Assembly (NCBI RefSeq): GCF_000826645.1
Contig: NZ_JXJP01000013.1
Coordinates: 62,001 to 126,000 of the forward strand
Direction: 5' to 3'
DNA length: 64,000 nucleotides
From: Psychroserpens mesophilus
Lineage (GTDB): Bacteria > Bacteroidota > Bacteroidia > Flavobacteriales > Flavobacteriaceae
The notes beneath the pieces were generated by a model. That model had not been told where the DNA came from and made no database searches. It worked only from the letters and a program-made list of their open reading frames with translations. The position numbers and the translations under genes were made by a program. How positions within the stretch are numbered: position 1 is the first letter of the stretch; each line of letters starts with the position of its first letter. Of the stretch, positions 9,081 through 22,112 are shown one piece after another.

Positions 9081-9191
9081 CTAAAAAAAATTAACAAGAA
9101 TATTTACGGTAATGATTACAACAGCACTAACAATTAAGCCTGTTATAAATATTTTGTTGGTTAGACTTGTTTTGTGTTTCATCGTATCCAT
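9081..9191 (-). CDS. Candidate 36-residue single-span membrane peptide
   Basis: An ATG-to-TAG frame encodes a basic N-terminus (MDTMKHKTSLTNK) and then one hydrophobic span (IFITGLIVSAVVIITVNIL) ending VNFF. The span length and the positive-inside start fit a small membrane peptide. A dedicated terminator hairpin at 9017-9052 follows it on the same strand. Upstream on the same strand is box C at 9365-9380, so it may belong to the response-regulator-controlled set. No Shine-Dalgarno is evident, which is common in Bacteroidota. Homology could not be checked. Confidence 0.45.
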   Translation of the reverse strand: MDTMKHKTSLTNKIFITGLIVSAVVIITVNILVNFF

Positions 9192-9224
9192 TATATTTCG
9201 ATTTAAATTGATTTTTTTTTAAAT

Positions 9225-9327
9225 AAAGCCCTGGGATAAAGATTATCCCAGAACTTTACACCCTATAACTAATTATCTTGTTAATTAAGAGTAATTAGTT
9301 GCTATTCATAATCCCTATATAAATAAC
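9225..9327 (-). ncRNA. Candidate small RNA or mRNA leader, unit C
   Basis: On the minus strand, box C is followed by TTG, 20 bases and GAGTTTTA (rc of 9334-9341), the same promoter spacing as in units A and B. The predicted transcript would hold a hairpin at 9267-9300 (AACTAATTA / TAATTAGTT) and a strong hairpin at 9231-9251 (CTGGGATAA / TTATCCCAG) followed by a weak T-rich stretch. It may end there as a small RNA, or read on as the leader of the 36-aa peptide gene. Transcript ends are estimated. Confidence 0.35.
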
Positions 9328-9364
9328 ATAGTGTAAAACTCGGTAATAAAACCACACAGCGCAA

Positions 9365-9380
9365 TACGTAGAACTACGTA
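9365..9380. promoter_or_regulatory. Box C, 7-2-7 palindrome TACGTAGTTCTACGTA
   Basis: Two inverted heptamers TACGTAG / CTACGTA are separated by two bases. The copy is identical to boxes A and B and is directly followed, on the minus strand, by the TTG of a Bacteroidota-type promoter. NarL-type regulators are known to bind inverted heptamers with this 7-2-7 layout and TAC at the outer ends. Confidence 0.65.
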
Positions 9381-9449
9381 CAAGCCCAAATTTTATTTTT
9401 AAATACCTGAAAAACAACCTGTTATTAAATGTTAAAATTTTAAAGAGCA

Positions 9450-9520
9450 TAAAAAAAGCTCTGAATTGTAAAAACTCAGAGCTTTAATCCTTTATTTCAA
9501 AAGGAAAATTGATTAATAGC
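9450..9520 (-). ncRNA. Candidate small RNA, unit B
   Basis: After box B come TTG (rc of 9553-9555), a 20-base spacer and GAAGTTTG (rc of 9525-9532), a -7 element with one mismatch to TAnnTTTG. The transcript of about 70 nt would contain a small hairpin at 9488-9505 (TCCTTT / AAAGGA) and end at a hairpin at 9455-9485 (AAAGCTCTGA / TCAGAGCTTT) with a run of T on the minus strand. Alternatively, the conserved stretch ATTAATAGC / GCTATTAAT (9512-9541) is itself an RNA hairpin and transcription starts earlier. Confidence 0.45.
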
Positions 9521-9555
9521 AATACAAACTTCGCTATTAATTCAATGCAGCACAA

Positions 9556-9571
9556 TACGTAGAACTACGTA
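9556..9571. promoter_or_regulatory. Box B, 7-2-7 palindrome TACGTAGTTCTACGTA
   Basis: Identical in all 16 bases to boxes A and C and in the same position relative to the following TTG and the GAAGTTTG element of unit B. The three boxes differ in the sequence around them, so their identity points to a selected protein-binding site. Confidence 0.65.
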
Positions 9572-9588
9572 TATTTCGATTTTTTACA

Positions 9589-9657
9589 TAAAAAAACCTT
9601 GAATCAATGACAATTCAAGGCTTTTATTCAATAATTCCCCCTAAAGAATTAATAGCT
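9589..9657 (-). ncRNA. Candidate small RNA, unit A
   Basis: Box A is followed on the minus strand by TTG (rc of 9689-9691), 20 bases and GAAGTTTG (rc of 9661-9668), as in unit B. The predicted transcript of about 70 nt ends at a hairpin at 9597-9620 (CCTTGAAT / ATTCAAGG) followed by seven T. The GAATTAAT-GC / GCTATTAATTC inverted repeat at 9646-9679 is shared with unit B. A ten-codon frame MAKFVELLIL overlaps the conserved block; it might be a leader peptide, but in unit B the ATG is ATA. Confidence 0.45.
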
Positions 9658-9691
9658 CCACAAACTTCGCCATTAATTCTGTATCAAACAA

Positions 9692-9707
9692 TACGTAGAA
9701 CTACGTA
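9692..9707. promoter_or_regulatory. Box A, 7-2-7 palindrome overlapping the regulator stop codon
   Basis: TACGTAGTTCTACGTA; its first heptamer includes the TAG stop of the response-regulator gene. Units A, B and C follow on the same strand, so the regulator gene is itself just upstream of its probable target promoters. Confidence 0.65.
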
Positions 9708-10342
9708 TATTTTGATAAATATGCTTCTTGTTCTTTGGCATAAATTGCAATGCTATTTGCATTAGAAGATAATTCCAATTTTGCCCGAATATGACTTTTA
9801 TGTTTTTCAACCGTTCGGTTAGAGCAACCTATAATCGCACCTATTTCTTTGGCTGTTTTGTTTTTAGCAGTAAGCTGTAACACTCGCAACTCCGTCTCTG
9901 TCAACAATTTTAATTCGTCTGGTAGTTGCTTTATTTCCAAGTATTCAATGAGTTCTGGACTGAAATACGATTTTTCTTCTAAAACATTAGCGATACAATG
10001 TTCTACTTCTTCAATGGCAAATTCTTTTAATATATAACCGTAAATCCCTAATGACTTGGCTTCATTGTAAATCTCTTCGCTTTTTTCAAAAGTGATAATG
10101 ATGATTTTAGTAATTAAGCTTGCTTCTTTACATTTTTGAGCCACCTGTAAACCTGTAAGATATGGCATTTGAATATCTAAAATAGCAATCTCTGGCTTAT
10201 GTGCATTGATGAGAGTAAAGGCTTCTTTTCCGTTTTTTGCACTGGCAATCACATTATATTCTTTTTCAAGAAGGAAATCTTTAAGACCTTTGAGAATTAA
10301 CGGATGGTCATCTGCAATGATTATAGATGTAGGCATTGGCAA
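9701..10342 (-). CDS. NarL/LuxR-family response regulator
   Basis: The 213-residue protein has a receiver domain with the acidic pair DDH (residues 11-13), phospho-acceptor Asp56 in ILDIQMP and Lys106 in YILKEF. A LuxR/NarL-type helix-turn-helix follows at about residues 147-205 (LTETELRVLQLTAKNKTAKEI, SNRTVEKHKSHI). No histidine kinase lies beside it, so its partner kinase is elsewhere. Its stop codon is inside the first of three identical palindromes that match the binding architecture of this family, so I infer that it controls the small transcripts downstream. A second start, two codons later, is also possible. Confidence 0.9.
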   Translation of the reverse strand: MPMPTSIIIADDHPLILKGLKDFLLEKEYNVIASAKNGKEAFTLINAHKPEIAILDIQMPYLTGLQVAQKCKEASLITKIIIITFEKSEEIYNEAKSLGIYGYILKEFAIEEVEHCIANVLEEKSYFSPELIEYLEIKQLPDELKLLTETELRVLQLTAKNKTAKEIGAIIGCSNRTVEKHKSHIRAKLELSSNANSIAIYAKEQEAYLSKYT

Positions 10343-14767: not shown

Positions 14768-17700
14768 TAATACTCTCTTTGCTCTCTTATAATATTAAAA
14801 ATTACTTCAACTTTATTTTCCATCCCATAAGGCTCAGGTGGCTCGTTTGCTATATCTATTCCTGTTTCAACTGAATAAGTTGCTAATTGTTTATATATCT
14901 CAGCTTTTATTTCTCTCTCTTTGGGTAAATTACCTCGCCAACCATCTCTTTTTACATTTTTCACAGCACGATCAATTTGCATTGCTAAAACTTCATTTTT
15001 ATCTAAATTATTATACAAAGCTCGTTGTGCAATGGTTACTAATGCTTCTGGTGTTTCTTCGCTTTTGCCTTCATTCACTTTTTTAGCTAATGCTGCAATC
15101 TTTTCTAAATATTCTGCGTAACTAACGGCATTTGCTTTTCGTTCTTTTATTATTTCAGCCAAAAGTTTAGACATTTCACCAAAAAACGCTGGATCTATTA
15201 AATGCTCTTTAATGATCTTTTTTCTAACATTATTTTCGATTGTTTCTGCTATTGCTCCCTGACTAGATTTGATACCTTCAGGCATAGAATTTATAGCATC
15301 TGCAATACCTGATTTAACAATTATATCTAATAAAGGCATATCTGCAAAGGGAGAAATTACTTCAGGCTCATCTGCTTGTATATAAGTATCAATCAAATGA
15401 CGCATATCTGCTTCGTAGGTTTTTAAATCTAATGTTTCGCCACTTGCTTGTCTTATTTCTTCACGTAATTTTAAATAATAGTTTAACTCTTTCTTTATGC
15501 TAATAACTTCAAGTTCTGTATAACCAGCTTCTTCCATTTCATCAGCAATATTTGCATAGGCACGAATTAAGGATACTGTTTTTTTATATAAGGCAGTACG
15601 CTGTGTTTCTCTTGCTTTTAACTCTAATTCAATCTCAGTATTTCCACAGAAATAGTGAATATAAGCTAAGGTGTCTTTTGGAGGAGCAACAGGTTCACAT
15701 AAAATATGTATTTCTTCTAAAGCATTATCCAATCTTTCTTTACCAATTTTCACACGGTCTTGAAGCATAATATCTATGTCTTTAGCTTCAAATTCATCAT
15801 AATCCAAATCGGTAGTATATACTGCAACAGCATTTTCAACCTTTTTAAATAAATCCTTGTAATCTACTATGTAACCAAATTGCTTATCATCGGTATCTAA
15901 TCTATTTACTCTACATATTGCTTGGAATAAGCCATGATCTTGCATACTCTTATCAATGTATAAATATGTGCAACTTGGAGCATCAAAACCTGTCAATAAT
16001 TTAGATACTACAACTAAGAGTTTCATATTAGCAGGCTCATCACTAAACTTTGCTTTTGCCCAATCTTCGTATTGTTCGGTGGTTTTTGAACCTAAAAGGT
16101 CATTGTATAAATTATACATAAACTCTTTTTCAGTTTCTGTACTTGCTCCAGTATCTTCGGTTGTAATATCACTTGTATGCGGACTATATGATGTAACAAT
16201 AGCACATTTGTTTTTTAGAGGTGTTTTCAGAAACAGTTCATAATATCTGCACGCTTCATAAATGGAGCTTGCAACCAAAATTGCATTTCCCCTTTCAGAA
16301 GATAAACGAGGTTTTAAGTTGAAATCAAAAACAATATCTGCTACCACCTTCTCCATTCGAGATCGACTGCTTAACACTTTTTGCATGGTTCCCCATTTCT
16401 TCTTAATCTCAGATTTTTGAAAATCGTTTAAACCTCTTGTTTTAGCTTCAAACCATTCGTCTATTCTTTTTTGAGAAGTTAAACGTTGATCTATATCCCT
16501 TGCTTCATAAACTAAATCTAATATGACACCATCTTCAACTCCCTCATTAAATTTATAGGTATGTATGTACTTACCAAATATTTCTAAACTTGTTTGCTTA
16601 TCTTTCTTTAATAAAGGTGTGCCTGTAAATCCAACAAAAACTGCATTGGGTAACATCGCTTTCATGGTGCGATGTAAGCGACCACTTTGTGTACGATGAC
16701 ACTCATCCACAAATACAAATAGCTCACCTACTGTTTGTGATGGTTGACTTTCTAATTCTTTAATGAATTGATTAAAGTTACCTGTATCTTTTTTTCCAAA
16801 CTTATGAACTAAAGAACATAATAATCTTGGCGTTGGATTACCTAATTTTTGCATTAAATCCTTACCACTTTTAGTGCGATAAATTTTTTCGTCTGCATCT
16901 TTAAACACGCGTTCTATTTGCTTATCTAACTCATCTCGGTCAGTTAAAACAACTACTCTTGCATTTGGATTATTTTCTAAAATCCATTTTGCCAAATATA
17001 CCATCACGATACTTTTGCCACTTCCCTGAGTGTGCCAAATTATACCACCTTCGTAACGATCTATATATTTTTGAGCTTCTTTAATACCGAAATATTGATG
17101 AACTCTTGGAAGTTTTTTAACGCCACCATCAAAGACAATAAAATTGTAGATGATTTCTAAAAAGCGTTTTTTATCGCACATTTTTAATAGGTACTTGTCT
17201 GATATAAGACGACTATTATCTTGAATATCTTCTTTCCATTTTAGATACCATTTTTGTGGCGTTCCTATTGTTCCATAAACCAATCCTTCTGTATCATTAG
17301 CAGAAAATATATACTGTATAGTTGAAAAGAAATTTTTGATAAAACCCTCTTGTTGGTTTACATTGCTTTGTCTTGTAGCTTCACCAATAGGAATTGTACT
17401 TCTTTTTAGTTCTAAAACACCTAATGCAATCCCATTAACATAAATAACTATATCTGGTCTCTTGGTTTTATTGCCTTTTATGGTAACTTCTTCTGCAATT
17501 GCAAAATCATTCTTATCCCAATGTTTCCAATCTATAAAATGTACTTTCTCGGTATTTTTACCAACTTCTGTTTTTATATCTGCACCATAGCGCAATAACT
17601 CATACACATTTTTATTAGTAGTATATAGGCTATCACTAAAATTATTGGCAGTTGTTTTTAGCTCATAAATGGCTTTAGTAATTTGAGCATTATTATATCC

Positions 17701-17856
17701 TTTTTTAATTAAATAGGCTTTTAGATACTCTTCTTCGATATTACTATTCTCTCTATTTTCTTCCCAATTACCTAAATAGGCATAACCTAATGCTGACTGA
17801 AATAATTTTACTACTCTATTTTGAGTGATACGTTCTACACTACCTACTTTACTCAT
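14767..17856 (-). CDS. hsdR: Type I restriction enzyme R subunit (ATP-dependent translocase/nuclease)
   Basis: The 1029-residue protein has a PD-(D/E)xK nuclease (RPDIVIYV with Asp135 and VLELKRS with Glu149/Lys151). Walker A HTQGSGKS (about 275-282), DECH box (384-387), the GFTGTPLL motif III and motif VI region [11 protein letters not shown] of the superfamily 2 motor follow. The helical C-terminal domain binds the MTase core. It cuts DNA lacking host methylation after translocation. It overlaps the preceding DUF262 gene by eight bases and the metallopeptidase by one. All visible catalytic residues are intact. Confidence 0.96.
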
Positions 17857-20266
17857 TCTGATAATTTTTTAATGCATTAGATAAGTCTTCAATAAATTCC
17901 TCTACTGCACTTATGTTTTTAATTGGAATTATTCTCTCTTTTGAGTTGCTAATATATTCGTCAAGAAACTCATTATCCAACTTGCTTTTTAGCTCTATTT
18001 TATATGTTCCTGTTTTATCTTCACCATTTGGATAATAGTAAACTTCAATAAAGTCTCTACCATTATTATTAATAGCAAAAAAAGGAATATTAGTATTAGT
18101 TCTAAAATTATTTACATCGATATATTTAAAGCTAAAACCTTTAAAATCATTGTTCTGTTTTTCAAAATGTAAATACAATATATAAGAATATAAATCTGCG
18201 TGTTTACCGTTATAGGTTTTTTGCTTTATTAAACGAATATCCAAATCGTGATAAAAATCTATAAAAGTTTCATTACAGTATGACATTACTTTAGGATATT
18301 TTATAAAGTACTTTTTCCAATCATATACAATAGAACTATCAATAACATTCTCATTATTTTGAACTACTTGTTTAAATGTTTTAAACGAATAATCATCATC
18401 ATTAGCATTGAATACTTTTCTCCAATTATCATTTCTTGCTCTTAAACTTCCTGCATCATTTTTATTAAACCTAAATTTATTACTAGAGATATGGACAAAA
18501 TAATCACCTTTCATTAACAACTTACGTTGCAATTCCCAATGTTGTTTTTCAATACTTTCATCAAAATAATAAGAAACTCTATCTGCATAAAGATTAAACA
18601 TTTCCAAACTATCTTTGTTTTCGGTTGGCATTAAATTAAATAAGAAGCCTATTTGACCATAGAAGTAATTGTTATTTTCTTGCTTTATTATAGCATCTTT
18701 AAAGCCTTCAATTTTGAAATATTGTAGTTTGACAATTTCTTCTTCTACTTGATTTTTAGCATAGAATGTAATGTTCACATTATCTGATAGCAGGTAATCT
18801 GTTATACTAAATTTATTTTTAGATAATTCTTTTAGCGATTTTATTGCATCTATAAAATTATCTGGATTCTGTATGTAGGTATTGTAAATTAAGTTGCGTG
18901 TAATACGCATCCATTCTTTAAACTTGTATTCTATATCAACCTCTTCAATTGTAGGTATGTCGTTTAAAAACAAGATAAAAGCATAATAATAAACTCTTTC
19001 ATAATAGTCTGTGCTTTTGCTGGCACTTGATAAGAATTTACAAACTATATCGTCATTTTTTGTAAACGGTGATTGATAAATATCTGTGAGCCAATTTTGA
19101 TATACTTCTAAATCATTCTCATTTAAACTATTTAATGTTTTGAATAAGAAGTTTAAAGCTTCTATTGAAAAGAATTGAGTCTCTTTAAAATCTCGTAAAG
19201 CAATGTAGCTATTACTTTTTGTAACTATGCTATCAATAAATTTTCTTTTATTCTCATTCTCTTTTGTTAGGTAATCTAATAAACAAATACTTTTAAAATA
19301 GTTGAAAATTGTATTGTCAACTTCATATTCTTTTTTAGGTTTATACGACCAAAAGAGGTCATACCAATCAGTATCTACTTTATATGCCCAGTTTACCTCA
19401 TTAATTTCTTCCTTAGTTTCTTGTTGTAACCACGCTTTAAAATGTTCAAAATCTGAAAGAGATTTACCTCTGGCATTCATTTTTACATACAATTCATCCG
19501 TTTGTTTTAATTCATCTAAATCCAAAAAGTCAAATTGTATTGTTTTCTGATTTATTAACCTACTCCATAATTCAGCAATGTCTATTTCTTCATCTTTATT
19601 TACTTGTTTATTAATTTCATCTAACATTACAAGCATACCTTTTACGCTTGGGTCACTTAACCAACTGCGCAGAAACCAAGTATTGTTAATTATGCGATTT
19701 GATAAAGCGTCTGTATTAAAATCATCTAGATTTAGTTTATTATCACTATTTGTAATTGCTAAACAAAAATCTGTTGTAGATTTTCTTGTTTTGTAGCCAA
19801 ACCCTTTTAAGACATTAAGTTGTTCAGTAACTTCATCTTTACCCAAGCGTTGTATGATATACCAATGCAGTAAATAAAGTGTTGTTAGTCTTTGTTGACC
19901 ATCTAATGGGATTAATTTAGTATGTGGAATAACTGTACTAATCTCTTTGTTTTGAAGGTTGTATTCAATACCTAAATCCAAACTGTTAGCATAACTTTTT
20001 ACTGCCGTTAGCATAACATTTACAGCTTCTTTGTTACGTTGTAAAATAAGTTCTTGTTCTTTTCCTTCTATCTTACCATATATAAAACCTAAAGAAAGCG
20101 GTTCATCCTCATTTAATGATTTTAAAAGGGATTGCACAAAGTTAACACGGATTTGATTGACTCTTTTTTCGGTTCTTCCTTGGGCATAATCTCTCTGTAT
20201 TACAGGTATTTCAATTTGATGATTCTTTAATAAATCCCAAAACGTATGTATGTGTTTACTCTCCAT
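17849..20266 (-). CDS. DUF262 (GmrS/ParB-like) protein without HNH domain
   Basis: The 805-residue protein has the DUF262 N-terminal motifs: [11 protein letters not shown] (about 20-30), [18 protein letters not shown] (DGQQR at 122-126) and [22 protein letters not shown] (about 263-285). DUF262 is a ParB/sulfiredoxin-like NTPase fold found in GmrSD, SspE and BrxU-type antiphage nucleases. I find no DUF1524 HNH motif in its 500-residue C-terminal part, unlike the adjacent gene. It overlaps the upstream DUF262-HNH gene by 11 bases and hsdR by eight, so it sits firmly inside the restriction operon. Probable role: an NTP-dependent sensor or partner of the HNH protein; this is inference. Confidence 0.85.
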
Positions 20267-22112
20267 CTTTACCTAATTTTAAATTAAAAAAAGAAGCAAA
20301 TGTTTGCGCTATGGCACCTACATACTGTTTTCTGTCCTCATAACCCCAATAACTCATTTGAAAAGTCAATGTATCTTGTGAATAATACTTTAGGAAGATG
20401 TTTTTTGTTGCTAAAGGAATAAAGGCTTTTACTCTCTTATCATTTTTATCTAAATAGCTACCTGCATCTATTTTTAGTAATTTATCTCGCTTACTCACAA
20501 AATTATCATTGTTAAAATGGCTATTAGTAACACCGTCTAACAAGCACAAGTTTTCTAAACTATGTTTGTTAAAAACATCATTTGTTAGGGTCTCTAAACT
20601 ACTCATAACATCCTTTAGCTCCTTTGTAATAGATGCGTGAGTATCTAATGTTTTGATGCAATCATCAATTTCAGAAAAATCAATTGTTATTTCTTGATGC
20701 TCGTTTGCTTTTTTGAAGTTTTCATTTAATGACTTTAAGTCTTTAACCCAATCTACTACTTGTATAACGGTTTCAAATTTTTCAGAATTTTGTGCGTGAA
20801 TATGCTCTAAACTCCAAAATGTAGTTTTAAATAAATGAAAAGGAAAGCGATATGAAAAATCACTATTTTCATAAGAAATCAAATTAAATAAGAGTAAAAT
20901 AGAATGTGTTTGTCTGGGTGTTTCGTAACTTAAATTCTCTAATCGATATTTTTCTGCATCAATATATTTTTCTCTGATGAGTTTAGTAAGGTCTTCTCTA
21001 AATACTGATTTAGAAGTTATCTCTTTATATTGCCCTATGATAGATTTAATATCACTCAATTTTTCATAAATGATAAAACCTATTAGGTGATACAAACTAC
21101 GGTTGTTATACCACTCTAAAAGAATATCATAAGTGTTTTTTACTTCAAACCATTGTAATGGATCTTCTGTAAGGGATGGTGCTTTGTTTTCTTCAATAAA
21201 ATCATCTAAATACTTTCTATAAGCAAAAAGTTTGTCGTTTGATTTATTTGCTTTTTCTTTTACAATATTAAAAAGTAAATCTATACGATTTGCTTGGTCT
21301 TTATCACTATTATCGTTGCTTACAAAATACCAAAAACTATCGTCTTGCAGTTTGTTTTCAATAGCATTCCATTCTTGCGCAAACTGATTTATTTTTAATA
21401 TTTGAAGCTCGTGATTTGTTTCGTTTTTTAGTTGTAATACAAAAAGAGCTTTAATTAACTCTGCTTGTGCTAAATCAATTTTCCCTTGATTGAAGTTAAT
21501 AAAAACCTCTTCCGAAGGTGTATTGCTTACTACATTATACCAAATGACTTTGGTATTATATAACAACTTATCTTTAAAACTATTTAAGTCTATTTGGTTT
21601 CTGTCATTTACCCAATGCCTTATTACGTAGTAAGCCATAAAGAAATGATAATTATCTACATTATCATTTGTTTTGTGAAGCTCTATATAGTTTTCCCAAA
21701 GTGCATTAACCGATTTTTGATTTAGTTCTGTTACCTGCTCTGTTACTGAATGTAAATTATGTATGTCTTTTAAAAAAGTTTCGCTTGCTGTTCTTGTTTT
21801 GTAACTTATTGTAAAGCGCGAAACATCTGTTTTAAGAATATTTTCTTGCTGTAAAATACTTAAAATAATGAATAGAGTTGTACTACGCTGTTGCCCATCT
21901 AATAACTCAAAACAATTTTCTGACAATTCTTTTATCACAATAGGTTGTAGGCAATAAAACCCATTTTTAGAAGCATCAAATTCCTCAATATCGTTCAGTA
22001 ACTCTTCTACCTGACGAATATCCCATTTGTAACCTCTTTGGTATTTTTCTACTACAAAATGATAGTTTTCTAATTGGTGTATAGATTTTAATTCAAATTT
22101 ATTGTCGTTCAA
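20256..22112 (-). CDS. GmrSD-like DUF262 plus DUF1524 (HNH) protein
   Basis: The 618-residue protein has the N-terminal motifs of DUF262: YQRGYKW (24-30), [12 protein letters not shown] (DGQQR at 72-76) and [20 protein letters not shown] (about 205-222). A C-terminal HNH of the DUF1524 type follows: SLEHIHAQN (His437 region), then [16 protein letters not shown] and FVSKRDKL (about 521-545). The whole layout is that of GmrSD-type modification-dependent nucleases. It lies 13 bases after the membrane-protein gene and overlaps the second DUF262 gene by 11 bases. It could attack modified phage DNA or act when the R-M system is inhibited. Confidence 0.88.

Follow-up and report, generated by a model that had tools for sequence, protein, structure and literature searches.

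Several small RNA genes are preceded by a palindromic GacA site, and in Vibrio several related small RNAs, the Qrr sRNAs, are driven by one response regulator, LuxO. NarL and NarP recognize heptamers of the form TACYNMT. Few regulatory RNAs are understood in Bacteroidota, and to our knowledge CsrA/RsmA is absent from this phylum. The Rfp sRNAs of Flavobacterium psychrophilum are described as structured small RNAs with TAnnTTTG promoters (PMC9723704); in Pseudomonas, antibacterial as well as antiviral defence is reported to be coordinated by GacA-RsmY/Z (PMC11888443). These systems are compared here with a locus from Psychroserpens mesophilus that lies in a 64,000-nucleotide stretch of DNA (the window). 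A search of open-licence PMC papers, by titles and abstract openings, found no description of this circuit.

We propose that an orphan NarL/FixJ-type regulator, phosphorylated by a kinase, would bind the 7-2-7 palindrome TACGTAG-NN-CTACGTA as a dimer and that the bound dimer, at about −51 to −36, would activate sigma-A promoters whose −7 element is weak. Its direct products would be two tandem noncoding RNAs, A and B, and RNA C, which in at least some transcripts would continue into a one-helix membrane microprotein. Action of A and B in trans would depend on their 5′ end GCUAUUAAU(U/C), on a GGGA/GGA-bearing hairpin, or on both, and in relatives the same box would bring further genes that vary between strains into the regulon, among them several for phage defence. 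This explanation as a whole, from the regulator-driven array and the microprotein to trans-acting A and B and distal recruitment in relatives, appears probable to us. It would make the circuit's regulon readable from sequence, since it provides sRNA classes together with their candidate regulator, the geometry of the promoter, and a DNA code by which any flavobacterial genome can be searched.

All features of the locus lie on the minus strand, in the order retropepsin-like protease, response regulator, three box-promoter-RNA units, a 36-aa membrane ORF, and an ORF with a below-cut-off match to DUF6252, beyond which lies a convergent gene that we take to be sucB. The regulator (9701..10336, start ATG at 10336) is an orphan of NarL/FixJ type, with a receiver domain (Pfam Response_reg, 1.2e-24) and a LuxR/GerE helix-turn-helix (GerE, 3.4e-13); its sequence contains LDIQMP, presumably the phospho-acceptor motif, and it matches the NarL structure 1a04 at 1.4e-19. 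It is 93% identical to a protein from a metagenome-assembled genome labelled Algicola sp. (L036) and 90% identical to that of the closest isolate, Psychroserpens jangbogonensis (L037). The regulator was matched at an E value of ≤1e-45 in 159 of 397 family genomes. A type I restriction-modification cluster, recognized by PADLOC matches, occupies about 14770 to 21638 of the window on the same strand, a few kilobases upstream of the regulator (positions inferred from ORFs).

An earlier note, made from the letters alone, had described three identical 16-mers here, each followed by a promoter-like arrangement and a small RNA, the first overlapping the stop of a NarL/LuxR regulator. These elements were all recovered. 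The 16-mer TACGTAGTTCTACGTA occurs three times on the minus strand with 0 mismatches, as box A (9692..9707), box B (9556..9571), and box C (9365..9380), and the TAG stop codon of the Response_reg-GerE protein lies inside box A. At ≤3 mismatches there were six matches, which count both strands of a near-palindrome for three boxes; shuffled sequences averaged 0.41, and 0 of 100 reached six. Each box is followed by TTG, 20 bases, and then a −7 element, GAAGTTTG for RNA A (9661..9668; TTG at 9689-9691) and RNA B (9525..9532) and the −7-like GAGTTTTA for RNA C (9334..9341). The −7 element occupies a fixed place, box positions 40 to 47, and box A lies at about −51 to −36 of RNA A. The hairpins with T runs proposed for A and B were present, as was the strong hairpin of C, whose T run is poor (GGGCTTTATTT). 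The tandem small RNAs placed behind the regulator are supported as predicted RNAs.

The architecture agrees with both precedents that the earlier note invoked. As in NarL/NarP sites, inverted heptamers with TAC/GTA ends flank a two-base spacer and the candidate regulator belongs to the same protein family, but the heptamer here is TACGTAG, and binding by this regulator is putative. The TTG and the −7 element, about 20 bases apart, fit the Bacteroidota promoter (TTG and TAnnTTTG); adjoining the regulator the −7 element is mostly GANNTTTR, a variant of the Bacteroidota sigma-A element. The Rfp sRNAs share the family Flavobacteriaceae, the TAnnTTTG promoters, and structured small RNAs with this locus, but the available part of their report describes no regulator-adjacent box array (PMC9723704).

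Conservation of the box and of its spacing to the promoter was assessed in 25 regulator genes of near relatives (own included) and in 50 of 66 database loci. Left out of the counts were 16 nonorthologous database loci (L086-L101), paralogues (L031-L035), a truncated locus (L084), and three duplicates (L036, L037, and L039, equal to L007, L008, and L010). The earlier note had held that boxes missing from relatives that keep the regulator would speak against a link between the two; boxes were mostly present. All 37 nonredundant near loci (Psychroserpens, Gelidibacter, Mangrovimonas, Winogradskyella, Bizionia, and kin) carry boxes ≤1.3 kb behind the regulator, 95 boxes altogether. Among more distant loci, chiefly Aequorivita, a box follows the regulator in 30 of 34, and the pattern search found none in the other 4. 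In all of 20 further loci, chosen by hand from 20 genera among regulator-matching genomes, a box that differs from TACGTANNNNTACGTA at no more than 2 positions lies ≤190 nt from the stop, at ≤21 nt in 18 of them and at 146 nt (L316) and 188 nt (L330) in the remainder. By reading, the sequence behind these boxes is a GCUAUUAAU-type RNA in 13, a start codon or membrane ORF in 5, and ambiguous in 2.

The outer TACGT/ACGTA of the boxes is nearly invariant. The middle four bases vary, with the outer two of these symmetric by eye (G..C or A..T), a pattern that would suit binding by a dimer. Promoter spacing is rigid: TTG stands at box positions 17 to 19 (T in 95, T in 88, and G in 94 of 95 boxes), TT at positions 44 and 45 in 95/95, and TTT at 44 to 46 in 94/95.

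A box centred near −43.5 directly upstream of TTG is in the typical position of an activator site. Activation by a dimer is suggested by three features together: a box centred some 43 bases ahead of the predicted start, the TTG that directly follows it, and −7 elements that deviate from TAnnTTTG. We consider it quite unlikely that the box is instead a repressor or dual-use site, or is mainly bound by another LuxR-type regulator of the same specificity. The latter version draws on three paralogous regulators, 41 to 42% identical (L032, L033, and L035), with TACGT palindromes just downstream, and on 12 genomes that have boxes and no detected orthologue; against it, the box is kept close behind this particular regulator in 20/20 further loci. 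Repression fits poorly with the location of the box directly before TTG and with −7 elements whose departure from TAnnTTTG suggests a need for activation. One genome (G022, L218) has no regulator match at an E value of ≤1e-40, and the 1.4 kb upstream of its box holds the protease gene and no regulator. It retains one exact box, RNA C, and the membrane ORF, and is apparently a natural loss of the regulator from between protease and array.

RNA A (9590..9656; ~67 nt, start predicted) consists of GCUAUUAAUU, a hairpin with a UAGG(G) loop, and an intrinsic terminator, and RNA B (9451..9520; ~70 nt, start predicted) of a single-stranded GCUAUUAAUCAAUU, a hairpin, and an intrinsic terminator. Both classes have good support; the signature of class A is GCUAUUAAUU..UAGGGAGAAUU and that of class B is GCUAUUAAUCAAUU... 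Class A was aligned as 28 sequences and, across genera, as 37, and class B as 27. The 5′ end GCUAUUAAU(U/C) is invariant or nearly so in both classes, and in class B the first 11 nt from the G are invariant among the 27 aligned. Of the 14 pairs in the class A terminator, 11 have changed on both sides, a level that 0 of 500 shuffles attained, with 44 compensatory cells versus 11 in shuffles and 94% pairing versus ≤60% for slid pairings; this covariation is that of the terminator stem, the 5′ hairpin having been misregistered between subgroups by MAFFT. The class B terminator has compensatory change in 8 of 13 pairs. Predicted folds place UAGG(G) in the hairpin loop of class A, followed by GAG/GGA, and AAAGGA in the hairpin arm of class B, whose 5′ stretch is predicted to be unpaired (~0.9).

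Identity with a known RNA family was rejected for the array RNAs: no Rfam family reached its gathering score, the window having only a tRNA and the region nine sub-gathering matches. Covariance-model searches of the own genome gave only weak matches outside the array (E value of 0.001 or worse).

RNA C (9221..9329) is a structured RNA or leader with a strong 3′ hairpin. In an alignment of 20 sequences the consensus fold holds this hairpin only, and subtypes differ much in the 5′ half. Directly behind it lies an ORF that was absent from the earlier sequence-only reading, encoding a 36-aa single-helix membrane microprotein (9081..9191; MDTMKHKTSLTNKIFITGLIVSAVVIITVNILVNFF). Of the 79 loci scanned, 68 are followed by an ORF of 30 to 50 aa with one hydrophobic helix; the 79 include 3 duplicates and the 11 without the ORF include 4 paralogue loci and 1 truncated locus. 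The microprotein is under selection, with a median dN/dS of 0.109 (236 retained pairs among 23 sequences with the 36-aa form), and one Asn is invariant among 14 aligned proteins.

In Aequorivita and kin, the start position of the promoter falls at the microprotein start codon: an ATG-like start stands at box positions 52 to 54 (A in 24, T in 29, and G in 29 of 30), the place of the RNA start in other loci. One promoter position thus seems to begin an sRNA in certain genera and a nearly leaderless mRNA in the rest. Since these genomes have the regulator and the box with a start codon at the RNA start, the RNAs are not essential to the circuit.

The position of this start codon also suits the idea that the protein is the conserved output and that A, B, and C are attenuated 5′ leaders or terminated by-products of it, multiplied by tandem promoter duplication. 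So do the conservation of the microprotein even where no RNA is seen, the poor T run of RNA C, which ends ~30 nt before the ORF, and three loci (L028, L041, and L043) in which an RNA-terminator unit directly precedes the microprotein ORF. We nevertheless judge this unlikely, since A and B have their own boxes and strong terminators and are followed by more box-RNA units, the conservation of their 5′ ends and hairpin exceeds what a by-product needs, and the two classes are present together in the same loci. RNA C itself probably serves the membrane protein as its leader or as a precursor that is partly terminated; the protein could, speculatively, feed back on the sensor.

For RNAs A and B, action in trans is the most likely mode. 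The earlier note had suggested a Qrr-like or peptide-based circuit. The peptide part was abandoned: an ATG ORF of ≥8 aa was present in 0 of 27 class A and 1 of 38 class B RNAs, and a peptide encoded by A or B was rejected in the absence of a conserved ORF. The likeness to Qrr holds in a loose sense only, as several related small RNAs that would answer to one response regulator. The regulator has no AAA+ domain, the promoter is of sigma-A and not sigma-54 type, the RNA sequence is different, and Hfq was matched in 0 of 34 genomes, with 5 of 14 control genomes positive. The RNAs would therefore require an Hfq-independent mode or another binding protein.

An antisense seed, AATTGATTAATAGC, had 23 matches at ≤1 mismatch versus 1 for a reversed control that holds CG and is rarer by composition, and several of the matches are themselves 5′ ends of other transcripts; for these two reasons no antisense target is claimed. 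A wider start-site pattern hardly exceeded its control (27 versus 22). The 14-nt start GCTATTAATCAATT recurs in the own genome at four apparent transcript 5′ ends without a box (L110, L111, L113, and L114, at C5:188124, C5:188337, C71:318848, and C71:509250), in the contexts of a tandem pair of terminated RNAs, the leader of a secreted-protein mRNA, and another terminated RNA.

At nine loci (L011, L014, L016-L018, and L023-L026), an extra class-A-like RNA lies behind a different palindrome, AACAGGTANATATACCT, which is followed by ATTG in 7 of the 9. The other palindrome occupies the same promoter position, so this RNA family may also receive input from a second regulator. The own genome has no match to AACAGGTANATATACCT plus ATTG at 0 to 1 mismatches and two at 2.

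In the window's own genome (3.68 Mb), the 16-mer has no further copy at ≤1 mismatch. Its two 2-mismatch matches lie in what by eye is a ribosomal-protein-like gene (L004) and at a site without TTG behind the box (L005), and this whole-genome search yielded no distal box. The box plus TTG was found in 23/23 genus genomes and 82/397 family genomes; the reversed-pattern control gave 0 among the matches listed. Boxes occur in 70 of 159 genomes with a regulator match versus 12 of 238 without (Fisher p 3e-21, ignoring kinship and including regulator-adjacent boxes), a co-occurrence that is partly due to physical linkage. Among genomes whose regulator position is known, at least 43 have distal boxes, and at least 24 of these genomes have no other boxes than distal ones.

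From the family-genome matches listed, 80 regions were fetched, array sites and remaining singletons being left out. After removal of 13 regulator-adjacent or RNA-array loci and 7 duplicates from 109 distal-site records, 89 sites remained, a few of them in the 12 box-bearing genomes without a detected regulator. A −7 element (.A..TT) lies at the expected distance in 78 of the 89, whereas 24 other shifts gave 0 to 19, so the distal boxes look like real promoters. The paralogous regulators adjoin similar TACGT palindromes, and some distal boxes may therefore be theirs; recruitment by the present regulator is a conjecture from the shared box. Those palindromes have the form ACTACGT....ACGTAGTTTTTGC in two cases (L032 and L033) and a similar one in the third (L035) and are followed by secreted-protein-like genes.

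Among the 75 first ORFs behind distal boxes, 11 matched PADLOC models at ≤1e-20: 3 of 23 in the genus, 3 of 17 in the sampled family, and 5 of 35 remaining ORFs, the last counted from the family rows. At ≤1e-10 the counts were 4 of 23 and 4 of 17 for the genus and sampled family. The models matched were Septu PtuA/PtuB, SIR2 argonaute-type, TIR, bSEFIR, PDC-S15, PDC-M64A, PDC-M49A, Old, and LmuA (Lamassu-like). Pfam, applied to 20 of the 23 genus ORFs, added DUF4231, which we take to be SLATT-like, a GHKL ATPase, a phage-tail-sheath protein, and a DNA/RNA nuclease. Random loci of the own genome gave 0 of 20 at ≤1e-20 and 1 of 20 at ≤1e-10, and ORFs of the window gave at least 4 of 44, from the type I restriction cluster. 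The difference was not significant (Fisher p 0.11 versus random loci and 0.17 to 0.57 with window ORFs), and no defence enrichment among the distal targets is claimed.

These genes nonetheless bear on what the circuit may be for. A Gac/Rsm-like danger or antagonism regulon, in which a threat signal would call up the sRNAs together with variable phage-defence and conflict genes, is possible, and we hold it tentatively. In its favour, distal box promoters do precede defence-type genes, at the frequency given above, and such genes are reported to be controlled in Pseudomonas by a GacA-type regulator with sRNAs (PMC11888443). The locus resembles Gac/Rsm in its NarL/FixJ-type regulator, a palindrome ahead of several small RNA genes, perhaps GGA-containing hairpins in the predicted RNAs, and defence genes among the putative outputs. 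It differs in that the regulator is not a GacA/UvrY equivalog (NF007018, 77 bits versus a cut-off of 280), the RNAs stand in tandem behind the regulator gene, and the defence genes would be direct transcriptional targets. The defence fraction does not exceed its controls significantly (p ≥0.11), two LmuA-type proteins (probably L250 and L261) look orthologous, and the first 10 proteins had been picked by eye before all 23 genus ORFs were scanned. Many of the other first ORFs, moreover, are lipoproteins without known function, and there are ruvB-like genes and small membrane proteins. Somewhat doubtfully, the parts could form a family-wide danger-response circuit whose components are independent of Gac/Rsm, with the regulator box driving a new sRNA family, a microprotein that perhaps provides the sensor feedback, and strain-specific defence or antagonism genes, and with AACAGGTANATATACCT giving this RNA class a further input signal in some species. 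Should the defence link be true, bacteria would have here a second coordinated immune regulon, built independently of the first.

Several further features of the distal sites were observed. The −7 element ends in TTCG in 21 of the 89 promoters, most often as TAACTTCG (for example, at L207, L215, L224, L225, L227, L246, L248, L251, L253-L255, L267, L304-L307, and L310), and some leaders behind such promoters resemble integron attC sites by eye. Boxes with other centres (ATTG and TTTT) precede genes that by eye are ruvB-like in two genera (L280 and L281), where the regulator is possibly different. Four boxes in other genera (L243, L274, L288, and L308) precede membrane proteins of 60 to 68 aa with the common C terminus L(S/A)PTGS. 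In one genome (G389), which has 22 box matches, large lipoprotein-like genes recur behind one and the same box promoter sequence (L232-L234), which suggests an expanded family of surface or antagonism proteins.
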